A stretch of DNA of 64,000 nucleotides from [Actinomadura] parvosata subsp. kistnae (GTDB taxonomy: Bacteria; Actinomycetota; Actinomycetes; Streptosporangiales; Streptosporangiaceae): positions 930,001 to 994,000 of the forward strand of contig NZ_OOHJ01000022.1 in the NCBI RefSeq assembly GCF_900323885.1. The letters run 5' to 3'. The position numbers and the translations under genes were made by a program. A model generated the notes under the pieces. It had not been told where the DNA came from. It worked only from the letters and a program-made list of their open reading frames with translations, and did not search any database. Shown here piece by piece: positions 56,484 through 64,000 of this stretch (position 1 is its first letter; every line of letters begins with the position of its first letter).

Positions 56484-57671
56484 ATGAGCCTGGGACCACC
56501 AATGAGCAGGGAAGGCGCAGAGCATGCGCTCCGTGCCCGCGCCGACGAGCGTGATCGCATCTCGGGCGACCTGCTCGATCTCGAATCGCACACCACCTAC
56601 CAGGTGGTCAAGGGGGCGTCCTTACGGGGGGCGACCGAGCGCCGCTGGGCCGCCGCCCAGGAGGCGCTGGGCGCGCTGTGGTCGCTGAACGACGCCTATC
56701 GCGCGGTGCTGCGCGAGGCGGAGCAGGTCAGGGCCGAGCGTACGCGGCTGGGCGCCGACCAGCTCGCCCGGCTCACCGAGCTGCTGGGCGGGAAGTCCGT
56801 GGTGCTGCGGGCCGCGGCCAAGCCGGTCGAGCAGCGCTCGCTGCTTCCGCAGGCCGAGGAGCGGCTGACATTGGACGAGGCCGTGACGCGGATGGACACC
56901 GCCTTCCGCGAGGTCACGGCGGCGCTCACCGACATCGACGATGTGTGGGGCTCGGTGCTGCCCCGTCTCGACGCGGCCGACGCCGACCTGCGCAGGATCG
57001 GGGAGCTGGAGCGGGAGCTGGGCGAGCCCGCCGCCCAGGGCGCCGATCACGAGGCCGAGCTGCGGCGGATCCGCGCCTCGGTGGTGGAGGACCCGCTGGG
57101 CCCGTCCGTCGAGCCGGATCTCGACCGGGTGGCCCGCCTGCTGGCCGGCCGCCGCGCGGAGGTCGAGCTGGCGCTGGTGGTCAAGGGCGAGTACGCCAGG
57201 CGGCGCGAGAACCTGGTGGCCGAGCTCGACCGGGTGCGGGCGGCCGAGAGCGAGGCCAGGCTGGCGCATGGCGCGGTCGTCGTGAAGATCGCCCTGCCGC
57301 CGCAGGCGCAGCCGCGCAGCAGGGTGCAGGGGCTGGCTGACGCGCTGGACGCGCTGGACGTCTCCGCCGATTCCTGGGTGCTGCGCGCCAAGCGCCTGGC
57401 GGCCCTGGAGGACAGCGCCCGCCAGGCCGCCGAGCAGTCGCTGGCCACGGCGAAGGCCCTGTACGGGCTGGTGGGCCGGCGCGACGAGCTGCGCGGCCGG
57501 CTCGGCGCCTGCCAGGTGATGGCGGTGCGCAAGGGGCTGGCCGAGGACCCGGCGGCGGTGGAGCTGTACGAGCGGGCCCGCGTTCTGCTGTGGAGCGCGC
57601 CCTGCGACCTGACGAGGGCGGCGGCGGCCGTCGAGACCTACCAGCGCGCGATCTCCGGAGGTAAGCGATGA
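56484..57671 (+). CDS. Coiled-coil protein, first gene of the PknG-type signalling operon
   Basis: The 395-residue soluble protein is almost entirely helical, with long heptad-like Leu/Ala/Glu/Arg stretches (e.g. RAEVELALVVKGEYARRREN). It has no signal peptide, membrane helix or catalytic motif. ATG 56484 follows GGGGAG by four bases; ATG 56502 is the alternative. Its stop overlaps the kinase ATG by 4 bases (ATGA). It may be a scaffold or kinase substrate; it is not recognisably PspA. Conserved position before a PknG homologue would be the test. Confidence 0.8.
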   Translation: MSLGPPMSREGAEHALRARADERDRISGDLLDLESHTTYQVVKGASLRGATERRWAAAQEALGALWSLNDAYRAVLREAEQVRAERTRLGADQLARLTELLGGKSVVLRAAAKPVEQRSLLPQAEERLTLDEAVTRMDTAFREVTAALTDIDDVWGSVLPRLDAADADLRRIGELERELGEPAAQGADHEAELRRIRASVVEDPLGPSVEPDLDRVARLLAGRRAEVELALVVKGEYARRRENLVAELDRVRAAESEARLAHGAVVVKIALPPQAQPRSRVQGLADALDALDVSADSWVLRAKRLAALEDSARQAAEQSLATAKALYGLVGRRDELRGRLGACQVMAVRKGLAEDPAAVELYERARVLLWSAPCDLTRAAAAVETYQRAISGGKR

Positions 57672-59803
57672 CCCGCTGCGCGCAGCCCGGCTGCACGGGA
57701 ACGATCGAGGAGGGCTACTGCGACCTGTGCGGCACGGCGGCGTCCTCGCCGCCCGTGCCGGCCGCTGTGTCGGCGCCGGCTCCCTCCGGGCCGGTGGCGA
57801 CCCAGCCGGTGGGCAGCCGGCCGATGAGCGGCCCGGTGAGCAGCGGCAGGTCGCGGGCCGGCGTGCTGGCGACCGTCGCCGACCTGCCGTCCGTCCCCTA
57901 CCGGGACCCGGCGACCGCCGTCATGGCGAACCCGGAGGTGCCGGAGGAGAAGCGGTTCTGCGCCAACCCGGCGTGCGCGAAGCCGGTGGGGCGTTCGCGT
58001 GACGGGCGTCCCGGGCTGACGGACGGGTTCTGCCCGCACTGCCGCACCCAGTTCTCCTTCACCCCGAAGCTGGACAAGGGCGACCTCGTGGGCGGCCAGT
58101 ACCGCGTGCTGGGCTGCCTGGCGCACGGCGGGCTCGGCTGGATCTACCTGGCCTCCGACGAGAACCTCGACGGCCGCTGGGTGGTGCTGAAGGGCCTGCT
58201 CAACACCATGGACCCGGAGGCGATCGCGGCGGCGGAGGCCGAGCGCAGGTTCCTCACCGAGCTCGACCACCCCAACATCGTCAAGATTCACAACTTCCGG
58301 CGCTCGGGCGGCCACGGCTACATCGTCATGGAGTACGTGGGCGGCCAGTCGCTGCACGAGCTGCGCCGCCAGGGCCCGCTGCCGATCCGCGAGGCCCTCA
58401 TGTACGGCAGGGAGATCCTGCACGCGTTCGCGTACATGCACGAGAACCAGAAGGTCTACTGCGACCTCAAGCCCGCGAACGTGATCAGGGTCGGCAAGCG
58501 GCTCAAGCTCATCGACATGGGTGCGACGCAGCCGTTCGGCTCGCCCGTGGGCTCGTCGTGGGGGACGGTCGGCTACCACGCCCCCGAGCTGGACGTGCTG
58601 CCGGCGTCGGTGAACACCGACCTCTACACCGTGGCCAGGACGATCGCGGCGCTGTCCATCCCCGGGTGGAGCCCGGCCAAGGGCGGCGTGGCCAATCCGC
58701 TGCCGGCGGACTGCGGGCACCCGTCGTTCACCCGGCTGCTGCACCGGGCGGCGGCGGCGAACCCGGCCGACCGGTTCCAGAGCGCCGAGGAGATGGAGGA
58801 GCAGCTCGTCGGCGTGCTGCGTGAGGTCAGCGCGCTGGAGGACGGCGTGCCGTACCCGGCGCTGTCGGGGCTGTTCGGGCCGGAGCGGCGGGCGGTCGGG
58901 ACGGCGCTGGCGGAGTCGGACAGCGAGGTGTTCGGGCCGCTCGACCCGGTGGCGGTGGCGCGGGCGCTGCCGGTGCCGCTGGTGGACCCCGCCGATCCGG
59001 CGGCCGGCGCGCTGGCGGGGCTGCTCGGGCGCGAGGGCCAGGAGCTGATCGACCAGCTCGCCGCGATGCCCGCGACGCCCGAGACCAAGCTCATGCGGGT
59101 CAGGCTGCTGGCCGAGTCGGGCGCGGCGGGGACGCCGACCGCGCTGGACGAGCTGGACCGGGAGCTGCCCGGCGACTGGCGGGTGACCTGGTACCGCGGG
59201 GTGCTGGCGCTGACGACCGGGCGGGCGGAGCAGGCGGCGGAGCGGTTCGACGCGTGCCTGTCGATGCTGCCCGGCGAGACGGCGCCCAAGCTGGCGCTGG
59301 CGTTCGCGCTGGAGTGCGCGGGCAAGCCGGCGGCCTCCTGGTACGACCTGGTGTGGCGGACCGACCGCTCCTACGTCAGCGCGGCGTTCGGGCTGGCCAG
59401 GTCGGGCCGGATGGGCGTGCTGGACCAGGTGCCGGCCGCGTCGGTCCACCGGGTGGCGGCGCAGGTGGCGCTGGCGGCCTCGGTGGTGCGCCGGCCCGAC
59501 CTGGGCGGGCTGGGACCGGCCGAGCTGGCCGGCGCGGTCGACCGGGTGTCGAACCTGACCGACCTCGACCCGCGCCGCCGCGACCTGCTCGTGGCGGAGG
59601 TGCTGGGCGGGGCGCTGACCTGGCTGGAGAGCAATCCACCGCCCAAGGACGTGCGGCTGGGCGGGGCGCCGTTCACCGAGACGGGGCTGCGCAGGCGGCT
59701 GGAGTCCCTCTACCGCAGGCTTGCCGTGGTGGCCGACTCCCGGGCGGAGCGCCACGCGCTCATCGACCGGGCGAACGCCGTACGACCGAGGACGTGGCTG
59801 TGA
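57668..59803 (+). CDS. pknG: PknG-like serine/threonine protein kinase
   Basis: The 711-residue kinase has the PknG layout. It has an N-terminal zinc ribbon (CAQPGC, then YCDLCG) and a rubredoxin-like Cys set (FCANPAC and FCPHC, about 97-127). The kinase domain (about 143-390) has a glycine loop AHGGLGWIYLA, Lys175 in VVLKGL, Asp266 in YCDLKPAN and Asp283 in LIDMGA. A TPR-like C-terminal half follows (about 400-705). In mycobacteria PknG controls glutamate metabolism through FHA protein GarA, in response to the GlnH/GlnX sensors. Homologues of these sensors appear downstream in this same operon. It overlaps both neighbours by 4 bases. Confidence 0.93.
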   Translation: MTRCAQPGCTGTIEEGYCDLCGTAASSPPVPAAVSAPAPSGPVATQPVGSRPMSGPVSSGRSRAGVLATVADLPSVPYRDPATAVMANPEVPEEKRFCANPACAKPVGRSRDGRPGLTDGFCPHCRTQFSFTPKLDKGDLVGGQYRVLGCLAHGGLGWIYLASDENLDGRWVVLKGLLNTMDPEAIAAAEAERRFLTELDHPNIVKIHNFRRSGGHGYIVMEYVGGQSLHELRRQGPLPIREALMYGREILHAFAYMHENQKVYCDLKPANVIRVGKRLKLIDMGATQPFGSPVGSSWGTVGYHAPELDVLPASVNTDLYTVARTIAALSIPGWSPAKGGVANPLPADCGHPSFTRLLHRAAAANPADRFQSAEEMEEQLVGVLREVSALEDGVPYPALSGLFGPERRAVGTALAESDSEVFGPLDPVAVARALPVPLVDPADPAAGALAGLLGREGQELIDQLAAMPATPETKLMRVRLLAESGAAGTPTALDELDRELPGDWRVTWYRGVLALTTGRAEQAAERFDACLSMLPGETAPKLALAFALECAGKPAASWYDLVWRTDRSYVSAAFGLARSGRMGVLDQVPAASVHRVAAQVALAASVVRRPDLGGLGPAELAGAVDRVSNLTDLDPRRRDLLVAEVLGGALTWLESNPPPKDVRLGGAPFTETGLRRRLESLYRRLAVVADSRAERHALIDRANAVRPRTWL

Positions 59804-60642
59804 CGGGGAGCGCGGGCGGGTGCCCGGTGTGCGAGGCGCCGGTGCTGGCCGGAGACAGCTACTGCGAGGCGTGCGGCCACGCCCTGGGCGCGCCGGCCTG
59901 CGCCTCCTGCGGCGCGGCGGCCGTGGACGCGGAGGGGTACTGCGAGCGGTGCGGCGCCCGCCAGCCGACCGGCAGGGACCACGCCGAGATCGTGCTCGAC
60001 CGTTCGGGCGCCGTGGCGGTGACGGACAGGGGGCTGCGGCGCAGCCGCAACGAGGACGCGGTGGCGCTGCTGGAGACGCCCAACGGCGCGGTCGTGACCG
60101 TGGTCTGCGACGGCGTGGGCAGCTCGCCGCGGGCCGACGAGGCGTCCGCCGTGGCCGTCGAGACCGCCTCCGCGGCGCTGGCCAGAGGGGTGCCGCACGA
60201 GGAGGCGTTCGAGCTGGCCGGGCGGGCCGTGGCCAAGCTGGCGACCTCGCTGGACGACGCGCCCGCCTGCACCTACATCGCGGCCATGGCGGGCCCGGAC
60301 GGCGGGGTCACGATCGGCTGGGCCGGCGACACGCGGGCGTACCTGCTGCCGTCGGGCACGCCGCTCACCGAGGACGACGCGGTCGAGACCGGCGAGATCA
60401 CGGCGTGGCTCGGCGCCGACGCCGACGACGCGGACCCGCACGTCCGCACGCTCCCCCCGGGCACGACGGGCCTGCTGCTGATCTGCAGCGACGGCCTGTG
60501 GCGCTACCTGGACGGCTACGACTTCCCCACCAGCGGGACCCCTCTTGAGCTGGCCCGCGAGATGCTGCGCCACGCGCTGAGCAGCGGCGGCCAGGACAAC
60601 GTGACGATCGCCTTGATCCCCCTAGGAGAAGCGCATGGGTGA
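59800..60642 (+). CDS. PP2C-family Ser/Thr phosphatase with N-terminal zinc ribbons
   Basis: The 280-residue protein starts at GTG 59800, overlapping the kinase stop (GTGA). Residues 1-57 hold two double-CxxC ribbons (CPVCEA, YCEACG, ACASCG, YCERCG). The rest is a PP2C domain with the metal Asp motifs RSRNEDAV, VVCDGVGSS, CSDGLW and GGQDNVTI, and with WAGDTRAYL. It should dephosphorylate the targets of the adjacent PknG-like kinase. The repeated ribbons in kinase, phosphatase and FHA proteins suggest a shared docking mode. It overlaps the VWA gene by 8 bases. Confidence 0.93.
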   Translation: MTGSAGGCPVCEAPVLAGDSYCEACGHALGAPACASCGAAAVDAEGYCERCGARQPTGRDHAEIVLDRSGAVAVTDRGLRRSRNEDAVALLETPNGAVVTVVCDGVGSSPRADEASAVAVETASAALARGVPHEEAFELAGRAVAKLATSLDDAPACTYIAAMAGPDGGVTIGWAGDTRAYLLPSGTPLTEDDAVETGEITAWLGADADDADPHVRTLPPGTTGLLLICSDGLWRYLDGYDFPTSGTPLELAREMLRHALSSGGQDNVTIALIPLGEAHG

Positions 60643-61921
60643 CCAGCCCGCTTTCACGCTGACCATCGACCAGAACAAGTACCTCCCTCTTGACGGCCGC
60701 GAGGTGCACGCCATCCTCACGATCGGCTCGGCCGGGGCGCCGGTCGCCCAGGCCGTGCCCGCCGAGGCGGCCGAGGTGATCATCATTGACACGTCGGGCT
60801 CGATGAGCGGCAGCAAGATCCGCGAGGCCCGGCAGGCGGCGGCGACGGCGGTGCGCACGCTGCGCGACGGCGTGCACTTCGCCGTGGTGGCCGGCACCGA
60901 GCGGGCCCAGGTGGTCTACCCGGGCGGCCACGCGAACCTGGTCCGGGCCAGCCCCGCGACCAGGGCGGAGGCCGAGCGGGCGATCGGCCGGTTGAGCGCG
61001 CACGGCGGCACCGCGATCGGCGAGTGGCTCAAGCTGGCCGGGCACCTGCTGACCGCGCACCCGTCGGCGATCCGGCACGCGATCCTCATGACCGACGGCC
61101 AGAACAACGAGCGCCCCGAGGTGTTCGCCTCGGTGCTGGCGGGCTGGAGCGGCAAGTTCGTCTGCGACAGCCTGGGCGTCGGCGACGACTGGGCGCCGGC
61201 CGAGCTGCGCAAGGTGGCCGAGGCGATGCTCGGCACGTTCGACTTCGTCCGCGACCAGGGGGATCTGCCGGAGTTCTTCCGCCGGCTCACGCAGACCTCG
61301 ATGAGCAAGACCGTGGCCGAGCTGTCGCTGCGGGTGTGGGTGCCGCAGACGGCGCGGCTGAAGTTCGTCAAGCAGGTCTCCCCCACGCTGCTCGACCTGA
61401 CCGGCAAGCGCACCGACGTCAACCCGCTGACCGGCGACTACCCGACGGGCTCGTGGGGCGCGGAGGAGCGCGAGTACCACGTCTGCGTCGAGGTGCCGCC
61501 CGGGCAGATCGGGCAGGAGATCAGGGCCGGCTGGGTGAAGCTGGTGCGGCCCGACACCCAGGAGGTCGTGGCCAGCGGCAACGTGCTGGCCCAGTGGACC
61601 GACGACCTGGCGCAGTCCACCCGCATCAACCGGAAGGTCGCCCACTACACGGGCCAGGCCGAGCTGCACGAGCTGATCCAGGACGGGCTCAGCCTGCGCG
61701 CCCAGGGCGACATCGACACCGCCACCGCGCGCCTGGCCAAGGCGCGCAAGCTCGCCGAGGAGTCGGGCCGGGAGGACACGGCCAGGCTGCTGGAGAAGGT
61801 GGTCGAGGTGGACCCGGTCACGGGCACGGCGCGGCTGCGCAGGAACGTGGACAAGGCCGACGAGATCGAGCTGGACACCGGCTCCGTGCGGACGAGCCGG
61901 CTGCGTAAGGAAGGAAGCTGA
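60635..61921 (+). CDS. VWA-domain protein
   Basis: The 428-residue cytoplasmic protein has a von Willebrand factor A domain at about 45-225 with an intact metal site: DTSGSMSGS starting at Asp52, GGTAIGEWL and LMTDGQNNE. A beta-rich middle (about 235-340) and a helical end (about 345-428) follow. VWA domains bind partner proteins through a Mg ion. It lies between the phosphatase and FHA genes, overlapping both, so it is likely a structural member of the same signalling assembly. Confidence 0.9.
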   Translation: MGDQPAFTLTIDQNKYLPLDGREVHAILTIGSAGAPVAQAVPAEAAEVIIIDTSGSMSGSKIREARQAAATAVRTLRDGVHFAVVAGTERAQVVYPGGHANLVRASPATRAEAERAIGRLSAHGGTAIGEWLKLAGHLLTAHPSAIRHAILMTDGQNNERPEVFASVLAGWSGKFVCDSLGVGDDWAPAELRKVAEAMLGTFDFVRDQGDLPEFFRRLTQTSMSKTVAELSLRVWVPQTARLKFVKQVSPTLLDLTGKRTDVNPLTGDYPTGSWGAEEREYHVCVEVPPGQIGQEIRAGWVKLVRPDTQEVVASGNVLAQWTDDLAQSTRINRKVAHYTGQAELHELIQDGLSLRAQGDIDTATARLAKARKLAEESGREDTARLLEKVVEVDPVTGTARLRRNVDKADEIELDTGSVRTSRLRKEGS

Positions 61922-62553
61922 TGGCGACCTGCCCGCAGGGGCACCAGTCGGGCGCCGACGACTACTGCGACGTCTGCGGCACGCAGCTGGCCGCGGTCCC
62001 CCAGGCTCCCGCGCAGCCTGCCGCGCCCGCGGTGGCGCCCGCCGAGGGGTGCCCCGTCTGCCAGACGCCGCGCGCCGGGCAGTTCTGCGAGGTGTGCGGC
62101 CACGACTTCAGCGGCAGCGCCCCCGTGACCGTGGCGCCCGTGACGGGGGCGCGGTGGGAGGCCGTGACCGCCGCCGACCGCACGTACTACGAGAAGGTGA
62201 TCGCCGAGGGCGGTCCGGACGCGGCCGCGATGGCGTTCCCTCCGTACTGCCCCGAGCGCTCGTTTCCGCTGGCCGGCGAGCAGGTACGCATCGGGCGGCG
62301 CAGCCGCGCCAGGAACCTGCAGCCGGAGATCGACCTGACCGGCCCGCCCGAGGACCCGGGCGTCTCGCACCTGCACGCCGTGCTGCTGGCCCAGCCGGAC
62401 GGCACGTGGATGCTGGTGGACCCGGGCTCGTCGAACGGCACGCAGGTCAACGGCAAGACGCTCAAGCTGAACGTGCCGGTCAGGGTAGGCCCCGGCGACC
62501 GGATCCACCTGGGCGCCTGGACCGTCATCACGATCAGGGAGGGCACGCCATGA
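61921..62553 (+). CDS. Zinc-ribbon/FHA-domain protein
   Basis: The 210-residue protein has two N-terminal ribbons (YCDVCG; CPVCQ with FCEVCG) and a C-terminal forkhead-associated domain (about 110-205: RIGRRSRARN, VSHLHAVLL, DPGSSNGTQVNG) that binds phosphothreonine. It is the natural counterpart of GarA, the FHA substrate of mycobacterial PknG. It lacks a GarA-like ETTS/ETVS phosphorylation motif at the N terminus, so it may read phosphorylation instead of being the metabolic switch. ATG 61921 overlaps the VWA stop by one base. Confidence 0.92.
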   Translation: MATCPQGHQSGADDYCDVCGTQLAAVPQAPAQPAAPAVAPAEGCPVCQTPRAGQFCEVCGHDFSGSAPVTVAPVTGARWEAVTAADRTYYEKVIAEGGPDAAAMAFPPYCPERSFPLAGEQVRIGRRSRARNLQPEIDLTGPPEDPGVSHLHAVLLAQPDGTWMLVDPGSSNGTQVNGKTLKLNVPVRVGPGDRIHLGAWTVITIREGTP

Positions 62554-63935
62554 CCATGGTGCGGCCCGCGCCGGGCAACGCCCCGGTGCCGGTCACGGCG
62601 GCGCCGGCGCCGGTCCGGCGCAGCGTGCCCGGCAGGATCCGGGTCATCTCCGGCATCACCGCCGCCTCGCTCGTCCTGCTGTTCGCCGCGCTCGCGGTCG
62701 GCACCATCAGCGCCCGCGAGGGCCTGCGGGTCATCGGCCGCGACGCGGGCCCGCAGGTGGTCGCGACCGCCGGGCTCTACCTGGCGCTGAGCGACATGGA
62801 CGCGCAGGTGGCGAACGTGCTCGTGATGGGGACCGCCTACCCCGACCAGCGCCGCGACGCGCTGGCCAGGTACGAGCGGCAGCGGGCCGAGGCCAACAGG
62901 ACGCTGCTGCAGGCGTTCGAGCTGTCGGGCGACAACCCGGCCGAGCGCAACACCGTGCAGTCAGTGCTCGACGGGCTCGGCCGCTACGAGCAGCTGGCCG
63001 GGCGGGCGCTGCTGCTGAACGAGCAGGCCGCGCACCCGCCGGGCCCGCCCCCGGACAACGTGGTGCGCACCTACCGCGAGGCCACCGACCTGATGCGCGT
63101 GGTGCTGCTGCCGCAGGCCTACAACCTGACGCTGGAGAGCGGCACGATCGTGCGCGCCACCTACGACTCCCAGGGCGTCCTGGCGCCGCTGGCCCGCGCC
63201 GCGGTCGTGCTGGCCGGGCTCGTGGCGCTCGCCTGCCTGGTGTGGCTGCAGGTGTTCCTCGCGCGGCGCTTCCGCCGCGTGTTCGGGCCCGCGCTGCTGG
63301 TCGCGACCGTGACGACGGCGGCGGCGCTGCTCTTCGGGACGAGCGCGCTCGGGCGGGACGAGGCGCACCTGCGCACGGCCAAGGTGGCCGGGTTCGACTC
63401 GGTGCTGACGCTGGCCAAGGCGCGCGCGATCAGCAACAGCATGCAGGGCGACCAGAGCCGCTACCTGCTGGACAAGGAGCGGGCCGACACCTACCAGCAC
63501 ACGTTCCTCGACCGGTCGCTGTCAGTCATGTACACGGAGGCCGGCAGCCTGCCCGAGTACCACACGGCGGTGGCCGGCCACACGACCGGCTACCTCGGCC
63601 TGCTCGGGCCCGAACTGGTCGGCAGGCAGGGCGAAGTGGTGGCCCGCGAGTACCGGCGCTTCCAGGCGGCCGACAAGGCCTTCCGCGACCTCGTCACGAG
63701 CGGCAGCACCAACGAGGCGGTCGCCGAGCGGCTGGGGCCGGTCAAGACGGCGTTCGACGCCTACGACCGGGCGCTGACGGAGCTGGCGGGCACGCACCAG
63801 AAGGTGTTCGAGCGCTCGATCCGCGGCGGCGAGGGCGCCTTGGACAACCTGTGGCGGCTGCTGCCGTTCGCCATCGGCGCGATCGGCGTGCTGATGGTCG
63901 CCGGCGTGTGGCCACGACTGAGGGAGTACCGGTGA
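62550..63935 (+). CDS. GlnX-like membrane sensor of the PknG pathway
   Basis: The 461-residue membrane protein has transmembrane helices near 33-53, 218-236, 248-265 and 435-452. They separate two helical extracytoplasmic domains of about 160 residues each (ISAREGLRV... and GRDEAHLRT...). This topology and length match mycobacterial GlnX (Rv0412c type), which couples the binding protein GlnH to PknG. No kinase or HAMP domain is visible. ATG 62550 overlaps the FHA stop (ATGA), and its stop overlaps the next GTG. The GlnX identity is inferred from topology and synteny. Confidence 0.75.
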   Translation: MTMVRPAPGNAPVPVTAAPAPVRRSVPGRIRVISGITAASLVLLFAALAVGTISAREGLRVIGRDAGPQVVATAGLYLALSDMDAQVANVLVMGTAYPDQRRDALARYERQRAEANRTLLQAFELSGDNPAERNTVQSVLDGLGRYEQLAGRALLLNEQAAHPPGPPPDNVVRTYREATDLMRVVLLPQAYNLTLESGTIVRATYDSQGVLAPLARAAVVLAGLVALACLVWLQVFLARRFRRVFGPALLVATVTTAAALLFGTSALGRDEAHLRTAKVAGFDSVLTLAKARAISNSMQGDQSRYLLDKERADTYQHTFLDRSLSVMYTEAGSLPEYHTAVAGHTTGYLGLLGPELVGRQGEVVAREYRRFQAADKAFRDLVTSGSTNEAVAERLGPVKTAFDAYDRALTELAGTHQKVFERSIRGGEGALDNLWRLLPFAIGAIGVLMVAGVWPRLREYR

Positions 63936-64000
63936 AACGGGTGCTGGCGGCGTTGCTGGTCCTGGCCTCCACGGCGGTCGCGGGCTGCGGGCTCAACCGC
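63932..64000 (+). CDS. Lipoprotein, probably GlnH-like binding protein (partial, cut by window end)
   Basis: GTG 63932 overlaps the preceding stop (GTGA). The 23 visible residues are a lipoprotein signal peptide (KRVLAALLVLASTAVAGCG) with the lipobox AVAGC. The position after the GlnX-like gene suggests a GlnH-type amino-acid-binding lipoprotein, but the domain lies outside the window. Confidence 0.6.
   Translation, partial: MKRVLAALLVLASTAVAGCGLNR

Follow-up and report, generated by a model that had tools for sequence, protein, structure and literature searches.

The subject of this analysis is a seven-gene operon built around a PknG-family Ser/Thr kinase, which lies at the end of a window of 64,000 nucleotides (the whole stretch of DNA that was analysed) from the soil actinomycete [Actinomadura] parvosata subsp. 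kistnae, corresponding to G000:C35:930001-994000 of a 13.6 Mb genome. The seven genes share the (+) strand and run from about position 56484 to beyond the window end, with all frames open at the positions listed here, in the order P1 (a helical protein), PknG kinase, PP2C phosphatase, VWA protein, FHA protein, GlnX-family membrane protein and GlnH-like lipoprotein.

56484..57671, + strand: P1, an all-helical protein of no known family (open frame; start possibly 56481 or 56502)
57668..59803, + strand: PknG-family Ser/Thr kinase with zinc ribbon, rubredoxin, kinase and TPR regions (PF16919, PF00069, PF16918; 470.5 bits to PDB 2pzi)
57677..57733, + strand: extra N-terminal zinc ribbon of the PknG kinase, read from the sequence, a mark of the extended operon type
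59800..60642, + strand: PP2C phosphatase with an N-terminal double zinc ribbon (PF13672 52.4 bits, PF12773 27.6 bits)
60635..61921, + strand: VWA protein (VWA_3 and VWA_3_C; PF13768, PF18571) with a MIDAS motif
61921..62553, + strand: protein with zinc ribbons and an FHA domain, not GarA/OdhI (PF00498 50.5 bits)
62550..63935, + strand: GlnX-family membrane protein of 461 residues (NF058618 278.7 bits; four predicted transmembrane segments)
63932..64000, + strand: start of a GlnH-like solute-binding lipoprotein, which extends to 64738 in window-equivalent numbering (L009:1932-2738; SBP_bac_3 99.7 bits)

An earlier note on this DNA had proposed an operon of seven overlapping genes, and this is confirmed, with every junction in the window overlapping by 1-8 bases (offsets of -4 for P1-PknG, -4 for PknG-PP2C, -8 for PP2C-VWA, -1 for VWA-FHA, -4 for FHA-GlnX and -4 for GlnX-GlnH); an alternative in-frame ATG would place the FHA-GlnX offset at +2. 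Close kin are found in Nonomuraea, with a VWA protein 92.3% identical in N. gerenzanensis and a P1 98% identical in [Actinomadura] parvosata. The kinase matches the rubredoxin (80.7 bits), kinase (89.4 bits) and TPR (269.7 bits) models in that order, all above cut-off, and its alignment to PDB 2pzi runs through the catalytic motifs. The note's reading of the 461-residue protein as GlnX-like is borne out by the NCBIfam subfamily model NF058618 (cut-off 250 bits), of which positions 2-413 of 413 were matched. Against NF041460, the equivalog model for PknG-activating GlnX, the same protein scores 36.4 bits where the cut-off is 780, placing it in the same subfamily but outside that equivalog. Hydropathy predicts its transmembrane segments at residues 29-56, 208-239, 243-263 and 433-455, with two large outside loops. 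The gene that starts at 63932, suggested to encode a binding protein, does carry an SBP_bac_3 domain when read from the genome past the window, behind a lipobox recognised by eye. It scores 93.5 bits against M. tuberculosis GlnH (PDB 6h1u), and two other binding proteins score higher.

The active-site and ribbon motifs of these proteins were counted in relatives by regular expressions, with rows under set scores dropped. In the kinases of 80 named loci (described below), the motifs D-L/F-KxxN and DxG are present in all 80, VVLK in 77 and HGGxGxxY in 66. The PP2C double-ribbon motif is found in 66/66 relatives, and the four PP2C metal-site motifs are kept in 61, 65, 66 and 65 of 66. The VWA motifs DxSGS and TDG appear in 61/65 and 65/65 relatives, and the FHA motifs GR/K, S/GxxH and NGT in 60/60, 60/60 and 57/60. 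Since the motifs of all four proteins are kept in most relatives, most operon sets look competent for catalysis and ligand binding. The earlier note had also placed CxxC zinc ribbons on the kinase, the phosphatase and the FHA protein. Of these, the FHA ribbon scores 18 bits, below the Pfam cut-off, although its cysteines can be seen in the sequence. The start of a second ribbon in the FHA protein is kept in 59/60 relatives. Ribbons on the kinase, the phosphatase and the putative phospho-reader suggest that the parts may assemble through them.

The operon FHA protein is distinct from the known PknG effector. We considered it as GarA/OdhI and rejected the assignment, as it scores 13.8 bits against the OdhI model NF041660 (cut-off 200); an ETTS-type phosphosite was not found in its sequence, nor was the literal ETTS-type pattern present in any of the 12 FHA loci scanned. 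A better match to the effector is encoded elsewhere in the genome, at L121:1459-1968 on the (-) strand (G000:C27, near 474 kb). This protein scores 177.7 bits against NF041660, slightly below the cut-off, has a DTTST site in place of ETTS and carries its own N-terminal zinc ribbon; it is 25% identical to the operon FHA protein. The known effector branch is therefore probably still present, and the operon FHA protein is probably a second reader or substrate and not a replacement, contrary to the note, which had treated it as the built-in counterpart of an effector encoded elsewhere. FHA-family matches (E up to 1e-15) occur in 50/196 genomes of the class.

P1 had no Pfam, NCBIfam or PDB sequence match, and 49 members of the family gave just scattered weak matches, many of them to coiled-coil families. 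Scoring of 8000 candidates found 257 relatives; none of the 120 listed has a Pfam domain, and most are named hypothetical. There are three candidate starts (GTG 56481, ATG 56484 and ATG 56502), of which 56502 is favoured because most of the listed relatives are 387-389 residues long. The AlphaFold2 model is almost all-helical (mean pLDDT 95.8, pTM 0.81), and its structural matches to EzrA and Atg17 are within the range for unrelated helical rods. Five of ten invariant columns fall at residues 329-367, a possible docking surface. P1 is linked to PknG. In 196 genomes of the class, we compared 46 P1 places (of 53 rows, omitting 7 that were second pieces of a gene) with 84 PknG TPR places above cut-off, and 41/46 lie on the same strand, 160-2242 bases ahead of the TPR region; of the 42 genomes in which P1 was matched, 41 encode PknG as well. 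Of the five other places, two lie close to a contig end in genomes whose PknG is on a different contig, two precede TPR-less kinases of loci L213 and L214 (see below), and one is a weak match in a genome without PknG.

The conservation of gene order, which the earlier note had proposed to survey, was followed in two samples, which are not independent, as at least some genomes are probably in both. The named loci are the best 80 of 585 relatives from a PknG-alignment scan of genome contigs, a choice biased towards kinases like that of the window, and their genes were called with iterated profiles of the seven window proteins. The class sample covers 196 genomes, 67 with a PknG TPR match (65 above cut-off) and 42 with a P1 match; 80 of its 84 TPR places, from 64 genomes, were fetched. 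All seven genes are present in 55/80 named loci in two orders, 34 as GlnX-GlnH-P1-PknG-PP2C-VWA-FHA and 21 in the order of the window; of the rest, 10 carry just GlnX-GlnH-PknG, and several of the remaining 15 run into a contig end. In the class sample, the operon is complete in 32/80 loci, 28 with the sensor pair upstream (four other families) and 4 with it downstream (the window's family); 18/80 hold GlnX-GlnH-PknG alone (16 of them from family f4), 11 hold PknG alone and 19 are partial. The order of the five-gene core P1-PknG-PP2C-VWA-FHA is the same in every complete locus, in both samples. The kinases of family f4 are mycobacterial in type, one of them (L010, from the f4 genome G093) scoring 1405 bits against PDB 2pzi. 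We also noted a 3.3 kb contig labelled Nocardia aurea (L042) whose kinase is 70% identical to that of the window, nearer than other Nocardia; it is possibly a contaminating contig. Just downstream of the window operon and convergent with it lies what by eye is a primary-type sigma factor gene (L009:2815-3963, - strand), followed by a DnaG-like gene.

Measured with the start nearest to the upstream stop, start and stop overlap in the 55 complete named loci at P1-PknG in 46/55, PknG-PP2C in 24/55, PP2C-VWA in 32/55, VWA-FHA in 17/55 and GlnX-GlnH in 43/55, and at the order-specific junctions FHA-GlnX in 11/21 and GlnH-P1 in 1/34. As the counts at most junctions fall well short of all complete loci, a full series of overlapping junctions is not a general trait of these operons. 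With gaps of more than 30 bases at VWA-FHA in 22/55 loci and at PP2C-VWA in 20/55, one could suppose that the genes are merely co-transcribed, sharing an operon for dosage without forming a single pathway. We regard this as the least probable of the explanations considered, given that the linkage extends over several families, that kinase, phosphatase and FHA protein all bear zinc ribbons, and that the four genes P1, PP2C, VWA and FHA are lost together.

The presence of these extra genes is marked in the kinase itself. A ribbon of the type C-x(2-5)-C...C-x-x-C ahead of the rubredoxin domain was sought in 135 loci, 20 of which were not scored, with 'extended' meaning at least one extra gene, and it is found in 90/90 scored kinases of extended loci versus 2/24 scored minimal ones (L068 and L093). 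By eye, three further loci without extra genes show the ribbon in L164 and L169 and none in L204. In kinases of family f68, the last ribbon knuckle is often altered. Family f3 has second PknG-like kinases (L170, L171, L210 and L211; 319-365 bits). The one in L171 has a ribbon at its N-terminus, and its locus shows a weak match to P1 and an adjacent VWA gene; it may belong to a sister system.

Trees of the kinase and of the sensor pair place the minimal form within the extended one. For PknG, we built a quick tree from 83 kinases and a careful one from the 53 that were left once 30 rows (long branches, solo or partial loci, near duplicates) had been dropped; the tree label 'seven' includes loci in which one to three genes were not found, e.g. 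L054, L055, L061, L062, L078, L087, L105, L145, L146 and L151. On both trees there are two changes between the three-gene and the extended form, a count that does not depend on the root, while its direction does. The minimal GlnX-GlnH-PknG form makes up two clades nested within the extended form. The Pseudonocardiales clade has the extended loci of Kibdelosporangium and Saccharothrix as neighbours, and the mycobacterial clade is sister to extended copies from Nocardia and Mycobacterium with support of 100/100. A single origin of the minimal form was seen in 0% of 200 bootstrap trees and is rejected by the approximately unbiased (AU) test (p-AU 0.00012). On the tree of GlnX and GlnH together (50 rows) there are three changes, and a single origin is again rejected (p-AU 0.00013). 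That tree gives the window-type GlnX/GlnH pair a long branch; a sensor swap is not supported, because these data do not reject the kinase grouping for that pair. A third and young loss is found in the window's own family, where L164 holds PknG-GlnX-GlnH only, keeps the ribbon and lies inside an extended clade of the 83-row tree. Outside the class, the genome with the only strong PknG TPR match in a 197-genome sample of the phylum carries P1-PknG-PP2C-VWA-FHA with GlnX and GlnH adjoining on the opposite strand (L212). The earlier note had described the extra genes as built into the unit here. On the PknG and GlnX+GlnH trees, the four extra genes instead look ancestral and lost in mycobacteria, so that the textbook three-gene form looks reduced. 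Three Mycobacterium sp. loci (L094, L100 and L089) have a seven-gene PknG operon in genomes that also hold a second, higher-scoring PknG TPR.

The opposite polarity, with a three-gene ancestor that acquired the four extra genes as a cassette on several occasions, would draw on the solo and three-gene PknG loci of several families and on the several genomes with more than one PknG. We consider it quite improbable: repeated capture on each side of pknG, always in the one core order and together with a gain of the ribbon, is less simple, the deep branches are extended on both trees, and the minimal loci L068, L093, L164 and L169 keep the ribbon.

The TPR domain bears on the relation between core and sensor pair. 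In M. smegmatis, PknG without its TPR did not restore growth of a pknG-deficient strain (PMC6069109; papers are cited here and below from excerpts). Three loci of family f68 (L213, L214 and L219) have a PknG-like kinase without recognisable TPR, called by Pfam in L213 and by low profile score and sequence in L214 and L219, and no GlnX or GlnH in the fetched stretch, which fits a docking of TPR to GlnX. L213 and L214 hold a P1-kinase-PP2C-VWA-FHA module; in L219, P1 was not seen and the VWA match is weak. Such a core, together with the recurrence of kinase-PP2C-VWA sets elsewhere in actinobacteria (PMC7159879, PMC11090510), would also suit an account in which P1, PP2C, VWA and FHA form a separate TerY-P-like module that captured PknG, so that GarA is still the target of GlnX/GlnH-PknG and the output of the extra genes is an unrelated one, for instance in stress or envelope processes. 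We hold this to be unlikely, as the sensor pair stays with the core in 55/80 named loci and the core kinase of f68 is still PknG-like (in L213, a rubredoxin match of 26.5 bits, just below the cut-off of 28.5). In four other f68 loci (L215, L216, L220 and L222), only PP2C and FHA of the set were seen.

The operon types also differ in the predicted GlnH ligand pocket. In the published GlnH, side-chain contacts to Asp/Glu are made by Arg147, Thr162 and Trp232 and main contacts by Ser164, Arg169 and Asp250 (PMC6069109). We mapped these positions by motif onto the GlnH of L152 and compared 114 proteins of three arrangement types, in which some genomes may count twice. The window protein keeps Arg147, Thr162 and Arg169 and has Thr for Ser164, Tyr for Trp232 and Asn for Asp250. 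Arg147 is found in 114/114 proteins. Trp232 is kept in 26/26 proteins of the minimal type, 9/62 of the type with the sensor pair upstream and 0/26 of the downstream type, all of which have Tyr. Residue 161 is Lys or Arg in 26/26 minimal and 51/62 upstream-type proteins and in 0/26 of the downstream type (Ala in 25, Gly in 1). The ligand of the window operon type may thus differ.

Taken together, we favour the explanation, with a probability of roughly 0.6, that the window operon is the amino-acid-sensing PknG system in its complete, ancestral form, later cut to three genes in the mycobacterial-type family and in Pseudonocardiales. It would most likely work as a phosphorylation switch that is anchored in the membrane and has a kinase, a phosphatase and a phospho-reader of its own. 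If the model published for mycobacteria and corynebacteria applies by analogy, the GlnH lipoprotein would bind an extracellular amino acid and GlnX would relay the signal through the membrane to the PknG TPR domain. PknG would then phosphorylate its partners, the best candidates besides GarA being the operon FHA protein and perhaps VWA and P1; the FHA protein would dock on phosphothreonines, the operon PP2C would reset the switch, and P1, the shared zinc ribbons and the VWA domain would hold the parts together in one complex. The mycobacterial-type and Pseudonocardiales copies would have shed P1, PP2C, VWA and FHA to arrive at the three-gene textbook form.

Several observations weigh against this explanation. 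Its polarity rests on a single outgroup genome from a different class (L212) or on PknG-like paralogs with long branches; outside the class, the phylum sample yielded just three genomes whose PknG TPR match exceeds the cut-off, and two of these matches are weak. Support for the Pseudonocardiales split is modest (85/63). At least two PknG TPR places were found in 10/11 checked genomes (those behind the named Nocardia, Mycobacterium and Pseudonocardiaceae loci), the Saccharothrix genome having one, and 9 of the 11 hold one such place above 400 bits; duplication with differential loss, or transfer, is therefore part of the history. The 11/80 class-sampled loci with PknG alone (six f68, three f3 and two f4) keep the TPR, so that TPR does not predict a neighbouring GlnX. 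Finally, because Trp232 is retained in so few upstream-type and in no downstream-type GlnH proteins, the signal may not be Asp/Glu. A bolder version of the favoured explanation, to which we give somewhat less than even odds, would have the three-gene pathway as the stripped relic of a seven-protein membrane unit (writer, eraser, phospho-reader, VWA and helical-rod scaffold) assembled via zinc ribbons on three members, a unit that in many actinomycetes senses something different from Asp/Glu and whose kinase loses its partner-binding ribbon after the partner genes go.

PknG is relevant to mycobacterial virulence and to amino-acid production (PMC6069109), and the phosphatase that resets OdhI in C. 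glutamicum is Ppp (PMC9769921). The available parts of the literature on the PknG operon do not describe a phosphatase, a phospho-reader or a scaffold among its members, and we found no description of the seven-gene unit in the open-licence PknG literature as excerpted, where Fig. 2B of PMC6069109 (STRING neighbourhoods) may show some of the genes. An operon with a candidate phosphatase, phospho-reader and scaffold, present in tractable Streptomyces as well, makes the question of dedicated PknG partners directly testable and shifts the evolutionary reading of the PknG model system from complete to reduced. The operon is a real, conserved variant of a known pathway, and what surprises most is the apparent reduction of the textbook form. 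New here are the apparently ancestral extra genes, the ribbon mark of the kinase, an FHA protein distinct from GarA/OdhI, GlnH pockets that vary with operon type and the linkage of P1 to PknG.

Among known systems, the closest is the PknG-GlnX-GlnH-GarA/OdhI pathway of Mycobacterium and Corynebacterium, with which the window operon shares a TPR kinase (with rubredoxin too, in mycobacteria), a GlnX-family protein and a GlnH-like lipoprotein in one operon, and a GarA-like FHA protein encoded elsewhere in the genome. It differs by P1, PP2C, VWA, a second FHA protein and the extra kinase ribbon, by its GlnH pocket and by a GlnX far from NF041460 (36.4 versus 780 bits). The TerY-P triad, which consists of VWA, PP2C and a kinase with a C-terminal zinc ribbon (PMC11090510), is similar in its adjacent genes for VWA, PP2C and a Ser/Thr kinase and in the presence of zinc ribbons. 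In the window, however, the ribbons are N-terminal and the C-terminus of the kinase is the PknG TPR, the VWA protein is of the VWA_3/VWA_3_C type, and FHA, P1 and the sensor pair are present as well. Actinobacterial GAP1-N2 GTPase systems include kinase-PP2C-VWA genes (PMC7159879), but theirs sit with GTPase and GAP1 genes, none of which was found among the seven window genes in Pfam and NCBIfam scans. In the type VI secretion switch, PpkA phosphorylates the FHA protein Fha1 and the PP2C phosphatase PppA reverses this (PMC3224232). The window operon resembles it in gene content, with a kinase, a putative antagonist phosphatase and an FHA protein, and a VWA domain is involved in both; unlike the window kinase, PpkA is a transmembrane kinase that carries the VWA domain itself, its output is secretion, and a PknG-type sensor pair is absent. 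The window system resembles the TerY-P, GAP1-N2 and type VI systems in logic, but by family it is a PknG system.

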